Part shown: one piece after another, positions 5,107-42,384 of the stretch | How positions within the stretch are numbered: the stretch's first letter is position 1 | Layout of the letters: the number at the start of each line of letters is the position of its first letter | Made by a program: the position numbers and the translations under genes | The notes under the pieces: generated by a model | The model's database searches: none | Told to the model about the DNA's origin: nothing | Seen by the model: the letters and a program-made list of their open reading frames with translations, nothing else | Origin: Erigeron canadensis | Lineage: Eukaryota; Streptophyta; Magnoliopsida; Asterales; Asteraceae | Direction: 5' to 3' | DNA: 64,000 nt | Assembly: GCF_010389155.1 (NCBI RefSeq) | Contig: NC_057769.1 | Location: 31,062,735-31,126,734 of the forward strand

Positions 5107-8100
5107 ATGGCCAAGGTATTTTCCTTTCCTTTTCCCTTTTTTTGCATTTTTAATTACTTTTTACATACATTATTTAACTTATAATTGTTAGTACTATTAT
5201 TTTGTGTAGAAAAAGAACCGACAACAAAACAACAATCAAAACGACGTCGTCGTTTCCGGTGGTAATAATGATAATGATGATGCAAAGAAGCAATTAAAAG
5301 TAGTTCTTAAAATGGACTTACATTGTGAAGGCTGTGCTGGCAGAGTTGTGAAAGCTGTTCGCAACCTTGAAGGTAATATATACAATATATATATGTATAT
5401 ATACTCCGTATGTATTTAATTAATAGATATATTATTATAGAGAAGATATATGTATTTTTTTTTTCTTTCTATTTAGGTGTGGAGTCAGTGAGGATAGGAG
5501 ACAGCTGTGAGTTAAACAAACTCACGGTGATCGGAAACTTAGATCCGGTCAAACTCCGGCAAAAAGTGGAAGAGAAAACCAAGAAGAAAGTGGAACTTAT
5601 TTCGCCGCCGCCGTCAAAAAAGCAAAATGACGGCGATGAAAATACTAAAAAGAAACAACAACCACCACCTACGGAGAAAACAAAAACCGCCGTTAAAAAA
5701 GATGATGACAAGACGAAACCCAAGGAGGTACACATTAGCATCTCATTACCATATATTGCTAACGTGCGCATCTGACTTTTGACTATTTCATTAGTTTGAA
5801 TAAATTTTTATTTATATTTTTTTGTTTTGTTAACTAGCTACCGGTGACAACGGCAGTTTTTAAGGTTGCATTACACTGTCAGGGGTGTGTTCGGAGGATT
5901 CATAAACTTGTTACCAAAACCAAGGGTAATTTCGCAATTTAGCCTCCTAACATTAATGATGTATATTTCTTTTGGATTAACATTAATGTTAATGAAGGTT
6001 AAACAAATCCTGGCTCCTTAAACTGCATTGAATAGTACTTATTATAAAATTCAGAGGTGAATTTTTATATGAAAAATATAATTTTTTTATTCACATTAAA
6101 TGAAGCTCTAAGAATTACATAACCATTTTCAAATTTTTCATCAATCATATACAATTATACAAAACACACTTGACAATATATAGGATTACCCATTTGATAG
6201 AGGTATTTGCCTCTTGAAAGGCCACATAACATTGATGCTTTTTGGTGTTATTAATCAAAGCAGTATAAGACTAAAAGAATAGATTAAATTTGCCGCTAAT
6301 ATATATTATATTACTCCGTATACTGTATATATGTTAATATATATATATATATATATATATGGAAAAATGAAGGGGGTGATGTCACACACCTAATTTGGGT
6401 GAAATTTCTCTCACATACTAATTTTTTAATCCATAAATTTATAATGAATAAATAATGAGCCCCCATATTTTGTATAGATTAAGAAATTAGAATGTGAAAG
6501 GAATTTCACCCAACTTAGGTGCCTAACAACATCACCTTTCACTTCCCTATATATATATATATACACACTAGTCTTAATACCCGTACAATGTACGGTATTT
6601 ATAAGATTGTATTATAAAAATATTTGATTATGTTACATACATGATTCGTGAGTATGAAATAAATAATGGTTTGCTAAATTATTTTAAATATAATATATGT
6701 TTAGTTAAAGTTTTGGATTTATCTTAAATTATTACATTCCCATCAAAATCAAACTTTTAAGCATAGTGAATGACGACATAGCCTTGTGATTTCGGATGGT
6801 AAGCTTAAATTTTATAAGTCTTCATGTTAATAACTTATTATAAGTAATATAAATAATAGGAATCGAAAAAGGAATAGCCTTGGTAAATATCAATATTTAC
6901 ATATATAACTTGGCATGCATATTTTGAATTATATTAAGATGTAGTTTGATAAGTACTACTCTTAAAACAAATCTAAAACAATACCTCTAGAGAGGTAAAA
7001 ATCATGTTCATATATTTTTGTTTCTTTGATGGATTGGAAAAAGAAAGCTATAATAAATAACATGAATATATAACATGTAAATAGATATCTTGATAAATTA
7101 AATATATGATGATGTTTATATAGTAATCATAAAAAAATAAAAATAAACATAACCACATAAAGATATATATAGTATCACATACCATAATTCCATAAGAAAA
7201 AAAATTATGATCCATTCTATATGAATTAGTTATAAGTATAGGTCCTATAGGATACCAAATTAAAGTGATGGAGAATTTTGTTCACGGGCCAGATTTTATA
7301 TTATATTTCAACAAAGTAGTTTCTTAATAAAATTAGGATTAATTAAAAAATAATATCGATAGGTAAAATCTTTTGTATGGAACTAATTTAGGATTAATAT
7401 GCAAATTAATAAGGACACGTGTCGCTTAAGTATTATGCCACATGCCGTTTTAAGAAAGCCACAATCCTGTTTTAGTTTATTGATAAATATATATACGGAA
7501 AATATATATATATATACAGAAAACACTTTACTTTGAGTAATTAATGGCTTTTGTATTACCTGATACGTACATAAACAAAATCAGGCATATAGAAACAAAA
7601 TGGAGATTGATATTTGTACCACATAACTTGATTAATTTACCAAACAGTATAAGTTTTACAGTACACTGTACAAATAATTAATGCATAATGGTAGTAACTT
7701 AATCAAGTGGTGTGGTACTAATATCACTTCCCATATAAAATTGGTCAAATATATAGAAACAAAATTAGGTATATAAAATTGGTGAAATATATAGTACGTA
7801 ATTAATTGCTGAAGTGTAAGAGGACGGAGGACCTGATGATTTTTGTCCTGTGTCGTATATGAATATATATTATGTAATTATAAAACAAAAGCTGTAAATA
7901 TTTGTTTAGAAAAAGTAAAAGTTTATGTGTAACAAAATTTGTTGCTTACGTTTCACTTTTTTCTTAGGAAAATACATGTTAGCATTTGACTTGGTTTGTG
8001 TTTCCATAGGTTGTGTGGATATATCGTTTGATAAGAGTAAGGATTTGGTGACGGTGAAAGGGGCGATTGATATGAAGTTATTAGGGGAGGCTTTGAATAA

Positions 8101-8422
8101 TAAACTAAAGCGGCAAGTGGAGATTGTTCCGACAAAGAAAGATGGCGGCGATGGTGAGAAGAAAGGGAAGGGAGGCGATGGTGAGAAGGGGAAGGGTGGG
8201 AATGACGGAGAGGGAAAAGGCGGTGGTGAGAAAAAGGGGAAAGTACGTGGCGCAGAGGACGGGGAGGGGAATGGTGTTGGCAATGCGGGTATGCATAAGA
8301 TTGAGAGTTATGGTCCGATGGTGTATCCGTATCCACAATATGTGTATGGGCCGGGTCATGTGGATGTGCTTGCTCCTTCGTTGTTTAGTGATGAGAACCC
8401 GAATGCTTGTGTTGTTATGTGA
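5107..8422 (+). CDS. HIPP: Heavy-metal-associated isoprenylated plant protein (HIPP), two HMA domains
   Basis: Five exons join in frame to 307 codons plus stop: 5107-5115, 5210-5372, 5477-5727, 5838-5925, 8010-8422; all introns are GT-AG. HMA1 (about residues 32-95) has the metal-binding pair C42-x-x-C45 in LHCEGCAGRV. HMA2 (about 147-210) has C155-x-x-C158 in LHCQGCVRRI. The linker is Lys-, Pro- and Glu-rich, and a Lys-Gly-Glu-Asp-rich stretch follows HMA2. The protein ends NACVVM, a CaaX box; the terminal Met favours farnesylation and hence membrane or nuclear association. Plant HIPPs bind transition metals and act in metal handling and stress; no specific metal can be read from the sequence. 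The ATG is chosen because it gives a three-codon first exon (M-A-K) in phase with exon 2, a short first exon that should be checked with transcripts. Intron 4 (2.1 kb) carries a MITE and a Helitron end. Confidence 0.93.
6361..6547. mobile_element. Mutator-type MITE, copy 2 of the TGTTAGGCAC family, in HIPP intron 4
   Basis: Left end GGAAAAATGAAGGGGGTGAT then CACACACCTAATTTGGGTG. Right end, inverted, GGGAAGTGAAAGGTGATGTT then GTTAGGCACCTAAGTTGGG. It is inserted in an AT dinucleotide tract, so the target duplication cannot be told from the repeat. Confidence 0.75.
6568..6600 (-). mobile_element. Helitron 3' terminus (minus strand) in HIPP intron 4
   Basis: On the minus strand the hairpin CCGTACATTGTACGGG is followed by TATTAAGACTAG, ending at 6568, then T. 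That is the hairpin plus CTAG-T arrangement of Helitron 3' ends. The element body would lie to the right inside the intron; I could not place its 5' TC end. Confidence 0.6.
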
Positions 8423-20238: not shown

Positions 20239-21280
20239 CGATTAAATTCTGGGATGATGTGTGGTTCGAAAGTACCTCATTTGCAATCAAATTCCCACGC
20301 CTGTATAATCTAGAGGTTGATAAAAGCGCTTTTGTTAGTGAAAGATGGAATGGAGCGGTGTTTATGTGGAACTGGAGAAGATATGTCTCGGTGTTTATGT
20401 GGAACTGGAGAAGATATGTCTGGGTGGATTAGAACAATCACAACTTCAGCAAATTTGTGATAGCATCAAGAATGTGACTTTTGTTAATACTTCTTATAGA
20501 TGGGTTTGGGACTAAAATCAAAATAAGGACTTCACGGTTAAAGGTGTTAGAAATCATATTGATAATACTTGGCTGCCTAGACATTACACAGCTACAAGGT
20601 GGAATAAGACTGTTCCTCGTAAGGTAAACATCTTTATTTGGAGAGTGTTGAAGGATAGGATTCCTATCATATTCAATCTCTGGTTCAGGGGGATTCATAA
20701 TAATTCTCTTGTATGCTTTTGTTGCAATAATGGTATTGAGACTCTTCATTTGTTTGCTCACTGTCCTATGGCAACGAAAGTATGGAGCGAAATTACGAGA
20801 TGGTTGGGTTTAAATATCCCCCACAATTTGGATCTAATTGAGTTGTTGGATCATGTAAACTTGCTCAAACATTCCCCAAAAGTTAAAAATGTCATTACTA
20901 CTATCATCTATGCGGTTTCGTGGGAGCTTTGGAGGTTTAGGAATGATATTGTTTTTGGGACTTCCAAGAGATGTGATAAAATTTTAGTCGACACAATTGT
21001 TCACACTGCTTATTTTTGGTACAACAACAGGGACAAAAAATCAAACATTCCTTGAGACGAGTTGCTTAAGTCCGATAAATATTCACTAGTACTAGTGAAT
21101 ATTTGGTTGTGTCTACACTTAGTCCCTTTATCTTGTCGTTGGATTTTCTTGGTAGTGAGTTCTTGGCGTCAGTTGTTGTGTTTCTAGACTTCTTGTAATC
21201 ATGTTTGTACTTTGTGACTGCTAGTGCTTTGCTAGCCTAGTCTTGCGTATATATAACATAGTTTTTTGACGTTCAAAAAA
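20239..21280 (+). pseudogene. LINE retrotransposon 3' fragment (zinc-binding end of reverse transcriptase)
   Basis: Broken frames read IKFWDDVWFESTSFAIKFPR, then DFTVKGVRNHIDNTWLPRHY, then KVNIFIWRVLKDRIPIIFNL, then a CFCCNNGIETLHLFAHCPMA block (C-x2-C ... H-x4-C). This is the order found at the C terminus of plant L1-type polyproteins (zf-RVT domain), and the frame from 20645 ends at 21055. A 3' UTR ending at about 21280 follows. A roughly 36-bp tandem duplication (two copies of FMWNWRRYV) at about 20359-20430 and a stop break the frame. The RT core is absent: a typical 5'-truncated copy. Confidence 0.88.
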
Positions 21281-24625: not shown

Positions 24626-27600
24626 ATGTCTATATCTATTACCACCAACTTCTTATCTCGATTCTCTATAATCAAACCCTATCATTTCGCATCTACAATA
24701 CCATCGATATTCACTAATTATCATTCAACACAGGTCTTATAAACATTTTATTGTTATTTTTAATAAACTTGATAATAATTTGACATAAATACTTATAATA
24801 TTTTCAGGTTTCTGTAAACCGACGTCGTTTTGTAACGTATGCGATGAATCCGGATCTTGATTCACCGGCGAAAAATCCAGGGCTCCGGAGTGACCCGCCG
24901 GATGAAGCTACTAAAGGATACGTCATGCAACAAACGGTATTATTTTATTAAATTTTATTTCTGTGTATTTTTCTGCCTTTTTGAGCTGTTGCATAGTTGA
25001 GTATTGAATTTGGCTAGAATGGACTTGAATGATTTGTGCAACTGCCATGCTTTTTTTTTTATATGTTGATGTTTTAGTTGTTTCGCTTTTAATGATGGTT
25101 TAGTTGTTTCACACGAGAGAAAGTACCCGCGGTAAGATGGTGGGGTGGTAGTTCATAGAGTGTGACAGGTCATAGGTTGTGATATGTCATAGAGTGTAAT
25201 AGCCAAATGCCTTAGTCGTACGGGCACCGCCCTCGGATTTAAAAATTCGTCAAAAGTATATCGAATGACATTTCCAATGAAAGAGCATTAAAATTTAAGA
25301 GCACCTATATAATTTTTATAATTTATCGATGTACGGTTTTTGAGATATAAGATTTTGAGATAAAAGATTTTGAATAATTTTTGAGAGAGAAAAATGGGTG
25401 GTTGAGATGTAGGGAGAGAAAAAAATGAGTGGTTGAGATATATATAAATGTATTGTACCTTATGCAATAATAGGTGTACATTGTTGATTGTTGAAAAGTT
25501 GAAAAAATTTGGAGGGAACAAATGCTTTATAATGTAGTAGAGATAGAGATATAGACAAAAGTTATATTGACAATATATATATATATATATATATAGAGGA
25601 AGGGTTATTTGAGAACTTACAAATAAAAAAGAACGCGAGAACAATTCTGGACCACTCATTTTCTTATATTTTCTCTCTTTTCCATTAAATAAGAAAATTC
25701 ACCGAAATCATTTAAAATGCTTTGTCTCACAAACCATAAATCGTTAAACGAAATAAAAAGCATGGGTAGTCTTAAAATTTCATCCTCTTTCATTAGAGAT
25801 ACAATTCGATATAATTTTGACGACTTTTTAATTTTCGTTTTTTTTTCCCATCGCGTTCATCCTACACATTTGTAAGATTATTGTTTTCACATGTAAATTA
25901 GTAAATGAGCATATGTACACAACAATGAAGGTCAAGGGCGGAGCCCGTCAATCCATGGCAGAGCCATGGTAGCCAAGGACGGAGCCCGTCAGTCCATGGC
26001 GGAGGAATAGCGGCTAAGGGCGGAGCCCATTAGGTAGATCACCCCCTATGACCTGTCACCCTCTATGACCTATCACCCTATGACCTATCACCCCCACTAG
26101 CTTTGGTTTATAAATATCCTTAAGGGCAAAGCCCGTTCTGAATCATAATTTTGTTCAACCTACACATGTGTAAGTTATGTATAACTACCAAAAAGAAAAC
26201 GAAAATTAAAAATTCGTCAAAAGTATATTGAATTGGATCTCTAATGAAAGAGGACGAAATTTTAAGACTACCCATGCTTTTTGTTTCGTCTAACGATTTA
26301 CGGTTTGTGAGTTAGAACATTTTGAATGATTTGGGTGAATTTTATTATTTAATTGAAGAGAGAGAAATAGGAAAGAATGTGTGGTCTAAAATGGTTCTTG
26401 AGTTCTTTTTTTTAGGAGTTCTCAAAATAATTCACCCTATATATATATATATATATAGGGTAAAGTTATTTTGAGAACCTTTTTTTTGTGAGAACCTTTG
26501 AGAACTTTCCAAATCAAGCCCAACCGATGATTGTTCTTTACATGAAAATTGTTTTTTGATTGTTTTCTGAATAACTTATGTCTAACTTTGAAGTTTATAA
26601 TTGTGTGGAGCATGGATTATCATCCGTAATACAATTATGTGGAGATTTGGATTCTTGATTATATGTGCACGAATATTGCTATGATCACATGTATGCAAGT
26701 TGATCACATGTAATCATAGCAATACTCGTGCACATGTGATCAAGAATCCAAATCTCCACATAATTGTATAACGGATGATAATCCATGCATCCACACAATT
26801 ATAAACTTCAAAATTACACATAAGTTATTCAGAAAACAATCAAAAAAACAATTTTCATATAAAGAATAATCATCGGTTTGAGCTTGATTTGAAGAGTTCT
26901 CAAAGGTTCTCGCAAAAAAAAGGGTTATCAAAATAACTTTTCACTATATATATATATATATATATATTGTATCTTGTAGGCTGGAGAAAAGGCGTATCCG
27001 GTAAACATATATGAAACATATACCAGTTTACTTTAATACTCATGTTACTGCAGCCTGGGACGGAGGCAGCATGGGGGTAGTGTAGGGAGCTGTCGCCCTG
27101 AATTTGGTACAATCTTATTTTTATTTTATATTTTAGGTATATTTGGAATTAGGTAAATATAGTAAATACATACAAAACATAAAACCAACATTCGAAATTC
27201 GTCCCCCAAGATAAATTTCATTGCTCCGACTTTATTTGGAGCTCACTCCATCATTTTGCTATATAATAATCTGGACATGAAGGCTATCAGCAATAATTGT
27301 CGAAAACCAAAAATCCTCTCATTAAACCCACTGGTGCCACAATACAAAGACCATAACAGAAGTCCAATGGTTGTGCCTCTGTTTTGGGTGAAAAAAAGCT
27401 CACGGGTTCCAATCTTGTTGAAAACACTAACTGATCTGTTTCTGCTAGAGGGCGAACTCCTAATGACTGCAATAATTAAAATACTGTCACCAATGGGACT
27501 CCATTCTATCATTAATCAACATTTTTCACTTGGGACACCCAAAGGACCAGTCGTCCTTTTTCAAAAACTCATGATAGTTCTAAAATTAATAATTTGCATT

Positions 27601-30600
27601 AGTCCACAGCAATTAACCAAAACAGATACAACTATTGGGCCAAATTTTTGCATACGACTTTGAGTTCTCCGGTAACAAAAACAAATTATTCGCTGTAAAT
27701 TTTGTGGTTAAATCTTTATTGATGACAGTGTCATGATAACCAAGCCGATTAAGTTTGTATGCTGTCTATAACCGAAAAGGCCTAATTCCTTTACCTATAC
27801 TATTTGTTTGAAGCTGAGTCTAAATTTTCATCTTAAAAACTAGATACACTGCCACAGTGCCACTTATATGCCTGATTATGTGTTAATGTATGCTCTTAAT
27901 ATAAATGCCCAGTCCGTAGCTGCAAACGCGAAGTGGCTAAGTAGTGATGGAAAAGAATTTGGCCCTAACAATCTCAGTCCATCTTCAAAAAAGGCCATTT
28001 AACCACAACCTCTACAGTTTAGCTTGAAACATAATCTGTGTTATATCAGCATATCAAACACCAAGACAACACATGTTTTCAATAGTCAAAACTGCATTGT
28101 AGAATCTAGGTATGTGAGACATGACCTGTTGAGGAGGGCTCCAGTGAGTCCAGTCTTTGGGATGTGTGATTTAGGAATACGAACATGTTGTTTGCTCACT
28201 GTAGTTTTGCTCAACCTGCGTTTAGTAAAAAATTCTTGGTAGAATAGACATGTCACAGACTTAGTCAAATGTTTTAAACTCTTTATAAGTATAGAATATT
28301 ATTGAAGTTGTTAATTTACTCTAACTAATCTAGACTAAACTAAACTAGACTAAAGGGGACACATGTTGTTTAAAGGAAGCGTTGTGTTAGGAAAGCCTTA
28401 ATTATGTTTTTGTTATATATTGGTATGTATATATATAATTTTAAATAGGAAAATTGATAAATATATGGAGTTAGTAATATCAAAAAAAGGTTTAACAAAC
28501 TAATGTTTGATCAAGGAAAGAATAGCATGCCGTTAAAGAATGGTTCAATTTTGTGTTAGTTATATTGGTAGATTGATAAATAGACATTTTAGTACATACT
28601 TAAAACCATTAAAACAAAAAACTGAAATTGTAACAAGATGAAAGTTCGAGTTATAAAAGGAAAAAAGTGAAATAAATAATGTTCACAGACTGTATCGGTC
28701 ACTCAGAGATTTCTATATATGTGGTAAGTATATTGTTTGATTTTAGATTGGCATAAAAGTAATATATATATATATATATATTCGTTCTATTATGTAATTA
28801 TTTTATTTTTTTTAGAACGGCACGTTCTATTATGTAATATATGGTCTGTTATTATACATTATAATCTGTTGTCAAATAGATTGTTTCTACTTTCTAGTGA
28901 GAGACAAATTTATTTTGTTACTTACTAAGTATTTTTTTTTGTTACATGAGACATAACAAAAATAAAAGAACATATTATTTATTAATTAATAAGGACAAGT
29001 GTTGTTTCAAGAATACGCCAAATATTATACAAAGGATGCATCAATTCTGTCTTGGTTGTATTGGTAGATGTGTGTATGTATATGAGCTTGACTTAGGGTT
29101 TGGTTTAGGAGACTAAGTGCAAAAAAATGTATTCAACCTGACACGTTTTGTTGTCGATTGTAATTGGTGATGTGGATCGTTTTTGATGACGTGGCAATCT
29201 ATATGTCATTTTGATTTAGTTATTAGTTATGACTGAAGTGAAGTATGAAGTATTTATGTAAGTATTTATGTTAAATGTATTGTTAAGAAAAAAGTTGAAT
29301 CATTTAAGAGGATGTGCTAACTGTTTACTAACTTTTTTCAGATGTATCGGATTAAGGATCCGAAGGCAAGTCTTGAGTTCTACTCGAAAGTACTTGGAAT
29401 GTCGTAAGTCTTTTTGTTTCATGTTTATATTACTTTATCTATGGCATTTTTGTTAAGGTGCTTTTCCCTAGGTTTCGTTAAAATATTTCTATTGTGGTAG
29501 CTATAGCCTATAGGATCTGAAATCTTGTGCAGATTGCTTAAGAGACTGGATTTTCCAGATATGAAATTTAGCTTGTACTTTATGGGCTATGAGGTGAGAC
29601 AGTAAATGACATAGTTTGATAAAACGTTTTCTTTTCTATGTGATTGGAGTATGTAATTGTGTCAATAAACTCATGTACATATTAATCTTGTCAGGATATC
29701 TCATCAGCTCCCATTGATCCGGTTGAGCGTACCCAATGGACATTTGCAAAGAATGCTACTATTGAGCTTACACAGTATGATATATCTTCATGCATTCTTG
29801 TTCATTGTTATCTCCATCCGTATTTCTGTAATAGCTAACTTACTGTAACATATTTCTAGCAACTGGGGCACTGAGACTGATTCTAAATTCCAAGGGCATC
29901 ACAATGGAAACTCAGAACCTCGAGGATTTGGTATGCCATTATCTAACATATATTTTCCAGAAAAATCTTTGGATATTTTCATGACATAGTATAAGTGTTA
30001 ACGATACAAACATTCTTTTCTTTGCATTCAGGCCATATTGGTGTAGCAGTTGATGATGTACAGAAAGCCTGTAGTAGATTCACAGACCTCATGGTTCCAT
30101 TTGTTAAAAAGCCCGATGAAGGTAAATTTTCTTCTCTAGATTTTATTTTATCTTCCGACCTGATGATGCTTTAGGTGCTAATGATATTCACATTTGTTAT
30201 ACAAATTTCTATAACTTTCCACCAGTGTACATTTGCATTATATGCAAATGTGAAATCAGCAAGAGTTACATTCACAGTAACATGCTGATCGTTTAAATTT
30301 TTAAGGTTATCATACTATCAGTGGTGCAATATTATTTTGTAACAGAAATTTAGCTTATTAAGACACCCAACAACATTTTGGTATTTCTTTCAACTAATTT
30401 TGTTATAAAAATTACCGTTTCCTTTTAAGATCATACTTTTAGGTTGTATGTGATTTATCATTTGTTCCATGCCTTTCTAATTTTTGTACAGTATCAGTAT
30501 ATGGAACCATTAGTTCATTATACTCTTATATTAGTTATTGCGTATTATGTATGGGGGCAGTGACTGCGCTACGTGTAACCCAGGGGAATGTATGTGTGAA

Positions 30601-31588
30601 AAGCTAGAAGTTTTTTGAGTTTCTAATCTCTATTACATGTCTTGCATACGCATACCAAAAATCAAATGGTCCAACGTTTAAAGCCATTGACAAATGAAAC
30701 TACATAAGAAAAGCATTACTAAACTAATACAGAGAAAAATTTGTCACAATGAGAAGTTAGCAGTGTATCTAACCCACGACATCACTGCCTGAAATGGAAG
30801 ACCAAAATAAAGCAAGAACTACTTCAGCTCAACATTCACCACATTCAGCTCAACCCCGCTGCTAGCCCCTGAATTGACCTTTCCTATCTTGCAATATTTA
30901 ATCTTTAACAGCCCTTTCTCGGTTTCTCCTTTGCTGCGTGCTGTCACCTACTTCATGTACCTGTAGTTGATAAATTTATATGATATGAATATTTATTATG
31001 TTAGTATATAGTGATTTTTATAATATTCATGAACCTTTTATCACTGTAAACTTAGAATTTGGAACTCGTAAGTTAGAAGTTTACTTGATTATTAGCGTTG
31101 TCGCACAACATGGTTTTCTACATGTATAACGAAGCCCATATTACTCATAGAGGTAAAGTTACATCTAGCCCAAAGAGTAACCCAAACCTGGAAAATGGTG
31201 TGTACCCCTCTCTAGGTTCCTGGACCAGCCACTGCATGGGGGTCAATCTATGAATTTCATCAAGTGGCTTTATGCTTGACATGAATGAATTGCTTTAAGT
31301 GTCTCTTTTAAAAAAAGCAGTTATGGAAACCACTTTCAGAGTGCACACAAACAAAAAGTATTAGCTTTATCAATGCAATTTTGTAATTGTTACGTGAATA
31401 TATGTTTATTTTTGCTTTACAAACTTTTTTCTGTTGGATTAAATTCCATATTTGACCAAATTAGCAATGTTATTGCAGGCAAACTGAAAGGGATCGCATT
31501 CATTAAAGATCCTGATGGTTACTGGATTGAAATATTTGACTGTAAAGGCATTACTAATGTAGCTATGGCTGCTGGCTCCAAAACCTGA
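24626..31588 (+). CDS. GLX1: Glyoxalase I (lactoylglutathione lyase), canonical copy
   Basis: Eight GT-AG exons join in frame to 236 aa: 24626-24733, 24808-24936, 29342-29403, 29533-29593, 29695-29774, 29860-29930, 30032-30121, 31479-31588. The enzyme isomerises the hemithioacetal of methylglyoxal and glutathione to S-lactoylglutathione, which glyoxalase II then hydrolyses. By alignment with human GLO1, the metal ligands are Q78, E144, H172 and E218, and the glutathione contacts R82, N148 and R168 are all present (TMYRIKDP, ELTHNWG, EPRGFGHIG). The single short domain resembles the eukaryote-type zinc enzyme rather than the plant two-domain nickel enzymes. The first ~55 residues (Ser/Thr/Arg-rich, RRRF) look like an organelle transit peptide. 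Intron 2 is 4.4 kb and full of transposons. A 3'-UTR intron (about 31595-31728) is likely. A tandem paralogue begins 2.6 kb downstream. Confidence 0.96.
25135..25420. mobile_element. Partial copy of the Mutator-like element at 25596, in intron 2
   Basis: It contains an inverted version of the GTGACAGGTCATAG segment and the AAAAATTCGTCAAAAGTATA block found in 25596-26437 and 56311-57166, but only one arm is recognisable and no target duplication is seen. Confidence 0.55.
25596..26437. mobile_element. Mutator-like foldback element with GC-rich core, copy 1 (842 bp)
   Basis: About 300-bp inverted arms (left GGGTTATTTGAGAACTTAC, right inverted GGGTGAATTATTTTGAGAAC) surround a core at about 25930-26130 with repeated GGGCGGAGCCCGTC and CCATGG strings and repeated ACCTATCACCC. 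It is inserted in a TA tract inside intron 2 of GLX1. The copy at 56311-57166 has a clear 10-bp target duplication, which supports a Mutator origin. Confidence 0.8.
26457..26945. mobile_element. Foldback element, copy 2 (489 bp)
   Basis: Same inverted-repeat element as 10932-11416, with arms meeting near 26690-26705 (around CACATGTATGCAAGTTGATC). It abuts the preceding element across a shared TA tract in intron 2 of GLX1. Confidence 0.88.
26946..29341. other. Remainder of GLX1 intron 2
   Basis: About 27050-27240 has GGGACGGAGGC on the left and GCTCCGAC on the right and may be a decayed hAT-type MITE. Open frames on both strands at 27243-27663 show no recognisable domain. The rest is AT-rich, with the splice acceptor TTTTTTCAG at 29333-29341. 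Confidence 0.4.
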
Positions 31589-34206: not shown

Positions 34207-36758
34207 ATGTCTATATATATAGCTGCAAATTCATTACCTCGATTCTCTATAACCAAACCTTATGATTTTGGATCTAAACTCCCTTCATTTTTCACTAATT
34301 ATCAACCCACGCAGGTATTATATATATACTCGTACTAATTACTACTATTATATTTATTCTTCTTATTATTATATATATATATAAACTTGATAATAATTTT
34401 AATCATCTCAACATTTTCAGCTTTCCATTAACCGACGTCGTTTTGTAACGTATTTGTTGAGCCCGGAGGATGAAACGACAGCGAGAAATCCGGGGCTCCG
34501 AAGTGACCCGCCGGATGAAGAAACAAAAGGATTCGTTTTGCAGCAAACGGTATTATTTCATTATCAATTTCTTTCTACCACTAGTACTAGCTATGGTTAG
34601 ACTGTTAGAGACATAGTTAATGAAGTGTTACAAAATTTTGTATAAAAGAGATAAATACGCAAAAGAAAAATTAAATAATAAAATCAGTGGAGTTATCCGA
34701 GTTTATCGTATTAGTCTATTATTGAAGATTGTGTGTGTATATGATGATGACAAGTGAGAAGCTAGAGGATATATATAGCAGTGTGTTTTGTGAGGATGTA
34801 TTAACTGTTTACTAACTTTTTGTAGATGTTTTTGATTAAAGATCCGACAGCCAGTCTTAGGTTCTACTCCGTAGTTCTTGGAATGTCGTAAGTAGTTTTT
34901 TTGTTTCATGATTATATATTACTCTATCTATGAATTGAAGCTGAATTCCTTCGTTGCGATATTTTTGTCTCATTGTTTAAAATTTAAATGCAGATTGCTT
35001 AAGAAATATGATTATCCAGATATGAAACTTAGCTTGTACTTTATGGGCTATGAGGTACGACAACATGACATTATATAGTTTGATTAAATGTTTTCTTTTC
35101 TTTCTGAGTGGAGTATGTGATTGTGTCATTAAACCATATATATATACAAATTAATCTTGTCAGGATACCTCATCAGCTCCTACTGATCCGGTTGAGCGTA
35201 CTGAATGGTTATTTGGAAAGAGGGCTATTATTGAGCTTACACAGTATGATATATCTTCATACATTCTTGTTTCATTCCTATTTCTGTGTTAATTAGCTAA
35301 CCCATCCTAACATATTTCTAGCTACTGGGGCACGGAGACTGATCCTAATTTTCAAGGTTACCACACTGGGAATTCGGAACCTCTAGGATTTGGTATGCCA
35401 TTAAATCTTAAATACATTCTCAAAAATAATGTCAGAATTTGTGCTCTTTGGATACATTTATAACATATTAGTATAATAGTTAACGATACATACATTCTTT
35501 TCAATGTATTCAGGTCATATTGGTATCACAGTTGATGATATACATAAAGCCTGTAGTAGATTCGAAAAGTTTAATGTTCCATTTGTTAAAAGGATCGATG
35601 AAGGTAACTTTGCTCTTCTTTAAATTTGATATTATTTTCAGACCTGATGATGCTTTATTAGGGGCTAAGCTGTTCAAATTTGTCAGAGCATATAAATTTG
35701 TATAGCTTTCTAACAGTATAGATTTTACATATATTTGAAACCATCAAGAGTTACATTCATAGTATAAGTGTTAACATGTAGGCCATTTAAACTAATCATA
35801 CCATCAATGGTACGTGCGATGTAATTTCGTAACAAAAATATAGCTTATTAAGACACTCAACAACGTTTTGGTACTTCTTCTAGCTAAATCTGTTATTAGG
35901 ATCACCGTACTCTTCTAAGACATACTTTTAGGTTCTATGCGATTTAAGATTTGTTCCATGCCTTTCTAATTTTAGTACAATGCTAGTTAATGGAACTATC
36001 AGGGGCCCTTTGGTTCTCATAATATATGAGATTTTGATGTATCCGAATTTAGACTATTTTACGTTAGCCTAACATGACAAAGAAGAAAATTCAAATTCCA
36101 TTCTACCAAACATCATACATTCGGTGAACCAGACGGCCCCTTAGTTGATTATAATCTTATATAAATTATTGCGCGTGTGTAAAGCTACGCCTTACAAGAA
36201 GTGATGATGCTACGTCTAATCCAGAGTACGTATGCTGAAAAGCTAGAGTTTTTGAGTTTCTAATGCCAATTACATTTCGTTCATACCATGCTACAAATTG
36301 ACCCATATCAAAAAATCAAATGGTCCAATCTACAAAGCCAAAGTGGCAAAAGTCAAAGCTACCTACATAAGAAAAACATTAGTGAAGTAATGAATTATAG
36401 AAGATTTTGTCACAATTAAAAGTTCGCAATGGTCACTGAATTAGCCTTTCCCCTCCGGCAATACTAGATTTTTTACAACCTTTCTGTAATTGTTGTGCGA
36501 GTGTATGTTTATTGTTGTGTGAAAGTAAAACTATATTTATCTATGCAATTCTGTAATTGTTGCGTGAGTATATGTCTATTAATATTGATAACAAACTTTT
36601 TTCGTTGGATCAAATGTCATATTTGAATAATTAGCAATTTTGTTGCAGGTAAATTTAAAGGGATCGCATTCATTAAAGATCCCGATGGTTACTGGATTGA
36701 ATTATTTGACTGTAAAGGCGTTACTGATTTAGCCAGGGCTGATACTCCAAAACCTTAG
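34207..36758 (+). CDS. Glyoxalase I-like paralogue with altered glutathione site
   Basis: Eight exons join in frame to 236 aa: 34207-34314, 34421-34549, 34826-34887, 34994-35054, 35164-35243, 35322-35392, 35514-35603, 36649-36758. Every exon length equals that of GLX1, and introns share patches of sequence, so this is a tandem duplicate. The four metal ligands are kept (Q78, E144, H172, E218). The three residues matching human GLO1 glutathione contacts R37, N103 and R122 are changed: L82 (TMFLIKDP), Y148 (ELTHYWG) and L168 (EPLGFGHIG). Other changes include K197R, P198I and L203F. No stop, frameshift or splice-site damage is seen, so it looks functional. Canonical lactoylglutathione lyase activity is doubtful; it may use another substrate or be a binding protein of the same vicinal-oxygen-chelate fold. 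It has a transit-like N terminus similar to GLX1. Confidence 0.93.
36002..36140. mobile_element. Small MITE in intron 7 of the glyoxalase paralogue, 139 bp
   Basis: Inverted ends GGGGCCCTTTGGTTC and, on the right inverted, GGGGCCGTCTGGTTC; flanks TCA and TTA. It is absent from the matching intron of GLX1, so it arrived after the duplication. Confidence 0.7.
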
Positions 36759-39970: not shown

Positions 39971-41560
39971 TCAATGCAAGTAGCTATTGATGTTGACATT
40001 ATTGCTGCTACTACTACTACTACTCTTGTTTTTGATATCATCAATCACTTGCTTCATTTCTTCAAGATTCTTGAAATTATAATCATTATCATGACCTGTC
40101 ATAATGAAACCATGATGATTTTGATTATCTCCAAAACTCTGTAAATTAGCAAATTGGTCTTCTTCTTGCTTGATCCCATGATGATCTTTGTTATTGTAAC
40201 TACTTATTTCAGAAGTAGAACAATCACTACCAAACATTAGCATCTTTTCTTTGACTTCTGGGAAGTAATAATCTTTGTTCATATTATTTTGATCTTGAAA
40301 CCCTAAATAATAGTTGTTGTTTGAGAGCATATCAACTAGAGAGCTTGATGATAATTGTGGTGGTGAAAAGAGATCACTAACAATAGTGTGGTTGTCAACA
40401 ATACTAGTTGTAGTGGTGGTGAGAGAGTTGACATTATTGTTGTTGTTAACATTAATGAAACTAGTTGGTCCGGAACCTGGCGCCATATATACGAGATTGG
40501 GTATTGTTGTTGTTGCTGTATTCGTGCAACTAAGGTTATAATTGTTGCAAAATAATGAAGAAGCATTATTATTCAAGAAACTATTAGAAAGTGGTGGTGA
40601 TTGAAGTGGCAGAGATGGGTAATTAAAAGATTTTTGAAAAGAAGAAGGAAGCATAGCCAAAAGCTTCTTTCTAAGCTTTGTGTTCCAGTAATTCTTGATA
40701 TCGTTATCCGTCCTTCCTGGTAGTTGACCAGCTATTATTGACCATCTGGACATATATATATATATGCCAAGCATAAATGAAGAAAAAAAAAATCAAGTTT
40801 CAATGTGCATAATCAAGAAAAAAAACTACTACATAAAATATGGACCAACAAAAAGTAGATTATTTGATATATTTGACTTGGCATGCATGCATGGATCCAT
40901 TTATGATCTATATACCCATAATTGTTACAAAATCCAATTTAGCATTTCATGTATGTTTGACCATTCATGGAAAAAATTGTAGTATATTTGTACAGTAAAC
41001 ATAGAAGTCATAGATGCACAACTTGTACAGAAAAGTACATAATCATATATAGCTAGGTACAAAAATGAACCTGACTTTTTGTATGAGATTATATTATAAA
41101 AAATAGCAAAAGGAAAGATCTAAAAAAAAGAGGTAATAAACAAACCTGCTTCCAATGGTAGCATACAAGCTACATATGATTTTATCTTCATCTTCAGTAA
41201 ACTCACCATGTTTAATATTTGGCCTAAGATAGTTTAGCCATCTCAACCTACAACTCTTTCCACATCTTTTTAAACCTATTTAATTACACACCCAAAACAC
41301 ATAACATTAATTAAACACTACTTTTTCTTGCAAAAACTACACTCACACAAATAAACAAACTTAAAAAAAAAAAAATACATATTTATGCATGTATATAGAG
41401 ATATATGCATGTGTGTGTATATACCAGCTTTGTGTGGAAGAGCAATCCAATTACCACCAGTACCATGTTTGTCAATAAAATCTTTGAGCTTTGCATCTTC
41501 TTCAGGAGACCAAGGTCCTTTTTTCACATTTGCTTTGTCACAACAAGGAGCTCTTCCCAT
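39971..41560 (-). CDS. R2R3-MYB transcription factor, RAX/MYB36-like (subgroup 14)
   Basis: Three minus-strand exons join in frame to 346 aa: 41560-41425, 41275-41146, 40745-39971. The intron positions (after HKAG and inside GSR|W) are the usual R2R3-MYB ones. The R2 repeat begins [20 protein letters not shown], and R3 continues through the [20 protein letters not shown] helices to [20 protein letters not shown]. The [26 protein letters not shown] start and the conserved R3 are typical of the REGULATOR OF AXILLARY MERISTEMS / MYB36 / MYB68 / MYB84 / MYB87 group, which acts in meristem initiation and root endodermis differentiation. The C-terminal two thirds are Asn- and Ser-rich with poly-N and poly-S runs, a likely activation region, and end [10 protein letters not shown]. 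Which member it is cannot be decided from one sequence. Confidence 0.94.
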
Positions 41561-42384
41561 TATTATTTTTTTTTTTTTCTCTCTCTCTTTTAATTTGGTT
41601 GTAAGTGAAAATCTCACTTGTTTAGTTGACCTTTGTTCCAAAAATATAGTAAGTCTCTCTCTTATCTGTATGTATGTGTATATATGATCTGGTGTATAAG
41701 TGGACAATTTTGTCTGGTGGGTATGCTGGTTGGCTTTTTCTGGAGTGGGAGACTTTTTTTTAGTTTTTCAATGAAAGCGAGTCTGTGTAAAGACAAAACT
41801 AACAAAACTTGTTCCTTCAATTTAATAAGATGAGGTGAATCAAGATCGGACCTTTTGTCAAATTGTCACGATCTATAATATGGATTCACTATTTATTGAC
41901 TTGCCTTTATTTTACAAACTTCCTACAACCATCACTATAAAAAAAACATTTATTCATATCTATTTTTTACGTTTGCGGATCAAGTATAAACGGATGGTTC
42001 TAGATTATGTGGTTTTATTCTAGTTCACGCTATAAATCTTTTCACCCAATACCTAATAGGAAAAAACTCTCTAATAGGTCGCCCAAAAACATAATAATAT
42101 ATTAGTAAAAAACCTTATCCCTTTAAACTCGAATATGGGTCTCCCAAATCTAAGTCCTGGCAGAAGACTTCTTTACCACTAGACTAATATTTTTCTTCAT
42201 ACTTTTACAATGTATAAATGTTAATAAACTTTTAAAAAATCATAGTAATCTTTAGGTAGATCTGTTTTTAGTAATGGACTAAAGAGTAGCCATATATCTA
42301 GCTTAATTTGTTCATTTTTGTGTTGGTTATCGAGCTCCTTTATGAATCTGTTAAATTTGTGTAAAATTTGTTATGAGTTAACGG
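41561..42384. other. MYB 5' flank and possible SINE remnant
   Basis: The first ~150 bp are the likely leader and core promoter of the MYB gene; on the minus strand CATATATACAC at about 41675-41685 could serve as a TATA element. Within 42120-42190, the minus strand reads TTAGTCTAGTGGTAAAG and ATATTCGAGTTTAA, reminiscent of A and B boxes of a tRNA-derived SINE, without a clear tail or target duplication. Confidence 0.4.

Follow-up and report, generated by a model that had tools for sequence, protein, structure and literature searches.

Gene B, an intact eight-exon paralogue of glyoxalase I (GLX1) in Erigeron canadensis (tribe Astereae, Asteraceae), is a candidate repurposed enzyme, open to testing, that lacks the three residues expected to hold the gamma-glutamyl end of glutathione and retains all ligands of the metal centre. 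It lies in a window of 64,000 nucleotides (the whole stretch of DNA analyzed here, on contig C9 of the 426-Mb assembly), and its loss of glutathione contacts is partly like that of the cotton specialized glyoxalase, now a biosynthetic enzyme, for which the name SPG is used in passages of PMC12566506. Judged from its sequence, B could be a metal-dependent isomerase freed from glutathione and SPG-like in its logic, a reading that we favor tentatively and to which we give slightly less than an even chance. The narrower proposal that B is an independently convergent, glutathione-free and metal-dependent alpha-hydroxyketone isomerase, derived from glyoxalase I through loss of R37, N103, and R122 with the glycine-end loop retained, and one case of a recurrent route in angiosperms marked by repeated loss of R122 with a canonical copy kept wherever one was sought, we hold to be doubtful.

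By spliced translation, B (window 34207-36758, + strand) encodes 236 amino acids, as does its neighbor A, a canonical GLX1 gene of likewise eight exons (window 24626-31588, + strand). Exon lengths are equal in the two genes (108, 129, 62, 61, 80, 71, 90, and 110 nt), all 14 introns begin with GT and end with AG, and neither frame holds an internal stop, so that the gene models bear out the 236-residue product with eight exon lengths matching those of the neighboring GLX1 that had been given in a preliminary description of this DNA. That B might be a broken gene model is ruled out by the intact frame and splice sites. Each of the two proteins is identical to a database entry, P0001 for B and P0002 for A, both named "lactoylglutathione lyase-like, Erigeron canadensis". 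The B protein matches PF00903 at 77.7 bits against a cut-off of 20.6 and is predicted to have the GLO1 fold, in common with A, to which it is 70% identical; a low-confidence loop at residues 162-170 of the B model is also present in the A model and is thus not due to the changes in B.

In GLO1, the gamma-glutamyl end of glutathione is held by R37, N103, and R122 and the glycine end by K150 together with a loop. We refer to positions of B by human GLO1 residue numbers, presuming that the match between the two, counted by hand along the GLO1 alignment rows, is correct. Conservation was read from a survey set of 167 proteins including B, drawn from three protein searches of which each contributed the best 120 of 818, 4830, and 6503 matches, respectively; the third, made with a profile built from seven copies that had lost site residues, added 8 new proteins to the first 159. 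Codons and alignment confirm that L82, Y148, and L168 of B stand at the sites of human R37, N103, and R122, where A has R, N, and R (Table 1). The metal ligands Q78, E144, H172, and E218 are, as also described before, intact, and each is kept in at least 166 of the 167 listed proteins, among which B is the only one missing all three of R37, N103, and R122. Codon 82 is TTG in B and CGG in A and so lies two nucleotides away, and codons 148 and 168 differ by one nucleotide each. Further changes in the pocket or tunnel of B are L to Y at 105, F to Y at 107, and F to L at 112 (human 60, 62, and 67). According to parts of a pharmacophore study of human GLO1 (PMC6268171), R122, R37, K150, and K156 make up the polar mouth of the site, with the hydrogen-bonding residues N103 and T101 nearby.

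Its sequence shows B to be a tandem duplicate of a glyoxalase I of the eukaryotic type, intact and still under constraint, that keeps the predicted fold and the metal centre, without the contacts of R37, N103, and R122 and with the changed residues Y105, Y107, and L112. On our tentative reading, it would still act as an isomerase on an alpha-hydroxycarbonyl, by way of an enediolate bound to the metal and with E218 (human E172) serving as the catalytic base. The substrate would need no gamma-glutamyl anchor, as is the case for SPG with cyclic alpha-hydroxyketone sesquiterpenoids, and K196 and the GKFK loop may still bind a carboxylate or a residual thiol adduct at the other end.

By the phylogenetic evidence, B is a tandem sister duplicate of A. 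A tree of 35 rows joins A and B as sisters (support 99/97) within the Asteraceae, with two Rutidosis proteins adjoining (84/82), and places SPG inside the Malvaceae (100/97); when 14 ligand-site columns are masked, in a tree of 41 rows, A and B are again sisters at 100/98. A clade of B and SPG is rejected on this masked tree (p-AU 0.0002), and the likeness between these two proteins is therefore convergent. Searching the genome with the B protein gave at least 17 places, 16 of which are exons of A and B, and since the one extra place is weak (E 0.616), a third GLX1-type copy was dismissed, these counts being lower bounds. Four places scored above the cut-off in a genome search with PF00903 (L001-L004, on C1, C6, C5, and C4); this search matched no exon of A or B and is thus insensitive to split genes, and the four places appear to be more distant glyoxalase-fold genes.

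A and B differ by 69 residues and 131 nucleotides, with about 0.40 synonymous (dS) and 0.17 nonsynonymous (dN) substitutions per site and a ratio of 0.42. Parsimony with seven Asteraceae proteins assigns 37 of the amino-acid changes to the B branch and 19 to the A branch and leaves 13 unresolved; dS was assumed to be evenly split, there being no nucleotide outgroup. Under that assumption, which allows an approximation to the branch-wise dN/dS that the preliminary description had proposed as a check, the A branch has a ratio of 0.31 and the B branch one of about 0.53, with a bootstrap range of 0.34-0.82. Of 2000 bootstraps, 99.8% put the value for B under 1, which indicates a protein still constrained overall given the even split; this value would rise to 0.88 if B carried just 30% of dS. 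The B-branch changes in the protein core (21 of 160 positions) affect 5 of the 12 published ligand-site residues (P 0.010, or 0.027 with the unresolved changes assigned to B), compared with none of the 12 for those of the A branch (12 of 160 positions), and no metal ligand changed on either branch.

B is also the sole exception among the listed proteins to the presence of an internal methionine, a potential start of a short isoform, which is found in this stretch of 107 of 108 long forms (225-250 aa) and in 110 of 111 of a wider set. Entries from sunflower and lettuce of 189 and 191 aa start at this methionine and are labelled isoform X2. With this residue lost, B probably makes the presequence-bearing long form only.

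Loss of R122 has happened repeatedly among GLX1 copies. The residue is missing in 10 of the 167 listed proteins, two of which have K and were not scored as lost, leaving 8; on the masked tree, the losses of 7 of these 8 (with P0041 left out) take 6 changes, of which well-supported branches force 5, a figure that counts events and is not a rate since rows were chosen for lacking arginine. Apart from B and SPG, the site is occupied by L in proteins of Rutidosis (P0031), Lycium barbarum (P0149), and Hibiscus trionum (P0124), by S in Durio (P0123, with Y at the N103 site), by Y in Bienertia (P0167, the one R122-less addition of the third search), and by Q in Linum perenne (P0041). An R122-keeping copy exists in the same species for Erigeron, Rutidosis (P0003), Lycium barbarum (P0044), and Bienertia (P0028), and in the same genus for Gossypium (P0104 and P0073).

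A new use of the fold through loss of glutathione binding already has an example in cotton SPG, which the preliminary description did not name. The solved structure that matches B best by sequence is PDB 7VQ6, "Structure of a specialized glyoxalase from Gossypium hirsutum", and we represented SPG by P0121, whose cluster is 96% identical to it. Sections of PMC12362738 describe SPG as an enzyme of the gossypol pathway that has apparently lost its glutathione site and is nickel-dependent on alpha-hydroxycarbonyl substrates, isomerizing cyclic sesquiterpenes, and list F65M, K101F, and R121I as changes lining its tunnel. Counted along P0121 and the alignment, these fall on L112, Y148, and L168 of B. 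At a cut of 94%, 92 positions are conserved among 159 proteins, and B and SPG each depart at 9 of them with 4 in common (104, 112, 148, and 168; P 0.0045), compared with 3 at a 95% cut (P 0.015) and 6 at a 90% cut (P 0.0022; here P0123 ties with B); none of these P values allows for ancestry or for positions that tolerate change, and the cut-offs were picked once the data had been seen. Among the papers listed by literature searches, no case of such repurposing in Erigeron or the Asteraceae was noted, which counts as weak evidence. On expression, the main text of PMC7307852 contains none of "glyoxalase", "lactoylglutathione", or "methylglyoxal", that of PMC9703714 has "glyoxalase" a single time, among its references, and both are silent on B.

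Besides the limits of this overlap, several observations weigh against a clean switch away from glutathione. B retains K196 (human K150) and the loop G201-K202-F203-K204 (human 155-158), including K202 (human K156), as well as T146 (human T101), so that part of the glutathione site remains and B may retain some glutathione use, which is the strongest of these points. SPG keeps R37 and is without the GKMK loop, whereas B is without R37 and keeps GKFK, and the two pockets therefore differ; B also apparently keeps its presequence, whereas SPG has reportedly lost its targeting signal. The top rank of 7VQ6 says little because the other close entries named are human or mouse, human GLO1 stands slightly above SPG as a match to B in VIA-align, and positions 105 and 107 of the 90% cut are Malvaceae-wide and depart in the canonical cotton GLX1 P0104 as well. 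TIGR00068 labels B a lactoylglutathione lyase at 184.3 bits, but SPG passes the cut-off of 120 too (181.1 bits), so that this model cannot separate such enzymes from true lactoylglutathione lyases. The clade of related species carrying L82, Y148, and L168 that had been envisaged did not emerge: among the 167 listed proteins only P0001, whose cluster has one member, has this combination, in a search of low power whose first part includes, among its species-named rows (some rows are unnamed), P0001 and P0002 as the only Astereae. The other named Asteraceae of that search belong to other tribes, Rutidosis to the Inuleae. Positive selection on B left no sign in a comparison of nonsynonymous and synonymous differences (pN/pS) at active-site codons and the core, nor is there an active-site excess, the ratio being 0.53 at 24 active-site codons and 0.50 in the remaining core. 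Finally, SPG itself is said in passages of PMC12566506 to have preserved a role with methylglyoxal.

The retained K196 and GKFK loop equally suit a modest chance that B is still a glutathione-dependent GLX1, with weaker affinity for glutathione or an altered aldehyde preference, and has become a long-form-only isoform by subfunctionalization. Its missing internal methionine, which makes the long form alone likely, and the existence of other GLX1 copies with R122 alone lost would fit such a history, and portions of PMC12362738, citing earlier work, state that deletion of GKMK abolishes GLO1 activity and that its addition to SPG partly restores this activity. Yet R37, N103, and R122 are all gone from B, as in none other of the listed proteins, and its pocket has changed further at 105, 107, and 112.

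It seems unlikely to us that B is a spare copy on which constraint has relaxed and which is heading for loss, its ligand-site changes being drift at a site that has ceased to matter. Its end branch is indeed 2.3 times as long as that of A in the 35-row tree (0.42 vs 0.18) and still 1.7 times with the ligand-site columns masked (0.29 vs 0.17), its dN/dS is the higher of the two, pN exceeds pS between A and B in exons 4, 5, and 7, and the near-equal pN/pS at site and core means that the extra constraint expected of an active site is absent. Set against this are the bootstrapped dN/dS below 1 under the even dS split, the intact frame, splice sites, and metal ligands, and the replacements at 148 and 168 that resemble those of SPG in kind. 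An unconstrained B should have gained about 5 stops at a dS of 0.20 (P of none 0.0064), which supports the earlier argument from the clean frame, though that support weakens at a dS of 0.10 (2.5 stops; P of none 0.08). The claim of the preliminary description that B was selected for a new use and is not decaying thus stands in part: the dN/dS, the unchanged metal ligands, the concentration of changes at the ligand site, and the convergence with SPG speak for it, whereas the lacking active-site excess, the orthologue not found at low power, and the retained GK(M)K loop do not. GLO1 active sites are formed by both subunits and are interfacial in the human enzyme; were B to pair with A, the sites of the A:B dimers would be altered, and B could tune or poison A in this way. 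The fold shared by the predicted monomers and the 70% identity are compatible with such heterodimers, but we consider this very improbable.

If B is a glutathione-free isomerase, as we tentatively favor, cotton SPG would be no one-off, and a near-universal detoxification enzyme would have turned into such an isomerase more than once, with the same tunnel positions changed in parallel. Further cases could then be sought by a signature of replaced R37, N103, or R122 with metal ligands kept.

Elsewhere in the locus, intron 2 of A (window 24937-29341) measures 4405 bp, compared with 276 bp in B, and contains long inverted repeats, e.g., 25670-25846/26191-26367 (177 nt, 90%) and 26610-26692/26706-26788 (83 nt, 94%), which resemble foldback or miniature inverted-repeat transposable element insertions. 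Exons 4, 5, and 7 and introns 4-6 are less diverged between the genes (34994-35603 vs 29533-30121) than most other parts, which may reflect gene conversion, though the intervening exon 6 is not less diverged. The open frame at 20516-21055 (+ strand) carries a zf-RVT domain (PF13966) and is probably what is left of the reverse transcriptase of a retroelement, and two open frames downstream of B (39971-40792 and 41318-41767, - strand) with partial MYB DNA-binding domains (PF00249) are probably exons of one MYB gene. Two further open frames on the + strand, at 5377-5775 and 7919-8422, are Lys/Pro-rich and Lys/Gly-rich and have no Pfam match; by eye, we take them to resemble heavy-metal-associated plant proteins.

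Table 1. Exons and residues of gene B, and exons of gene A, in window coordinates (counts refer to the 167 listed proteins).
Feature	Position	Strand	Remarks
Gene B exon 1	34207..34314	+	108 nt; presequence-like N-terminus by eye
Gene B exon 2	34421..34549	+	129 nt
Gene B exon 3	34826..34887	+	62 nt
Gene B exon 4	34994..35054	+	61 nt
Gene B exon 5	35164..35243	+	80 nt
Gene B exon 6	35322..35392	+	71 nt
Gene B exon 7	35514..35603	+	90 nt
Gene B exon 8	36649..36758	+	110 nt including stop
L49	34457..34459	+	Met in A (potential start of short isoform); internal Met absent in B
Q78, metal ligand (human Q33), kept	34544..34546	+	Q in 167/167
L82, at human R37 site	34832..34834	+	A has R; R in 166/167, L in B only
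E144, metal ligand (human E99), kept	35233..35235	+	E in 167/167
Y148, at human N103 site	35323..35325	+	A has N; cotton SPG F; N in 163/167
L168, at human R122 site	35383..35385	+	A has R; cotton SPG I; R in 157/167
H172, metal ligand (human H126), kept	35516..35518	+	H in 166/167
K202-F203-K204, retained glutathione-loop motif (GKFK)	36651..36659	+	most relatives have GKMK; SPG lacks it
E218, metal ligand (human E172), kept	36699..36701	+	E in 167/167
Gene A exons	24626-24733, 24808-24936, 29342-29403, 29533-29593, 29695-29774, 29860-29930, 30032-30121, 31479-31588	+	

Compared with canonical eukaryotic GLX1 (human GLO1, plant single-domain GLX1, and A), B is alike in its metal ligands, K150, the loop, and the predicted fold, and with A it further shares exon structure and 70% identity, but R37, N103, R122, and the pocket residues at 105, 107, and 112 are replaced and the internal methionine is gone. 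The six R122-less proteins of Rutidosis, Lycium, Hibiscus, Durio, Bienertia, and Linum share this loss with B and keep their metal ligands; unlike B, all six retain R37, and N103 is lost in Durio P0123 alone. SPG and B both combine the GLX1 fold (predicted for B) and the metal ligands with canonical copies in the same genus, and by alignment two of the three sites hold residues of like class, apolar or aromatic in both proteins: F in SPG against Y in B at the position of N103, and I against L at that of R122. The human F67 site is M in SPG and L in B. SPG is a protein of Malvaceae with a published activity, whereas B belongs to the Asteraceae and is known here from its sequence.
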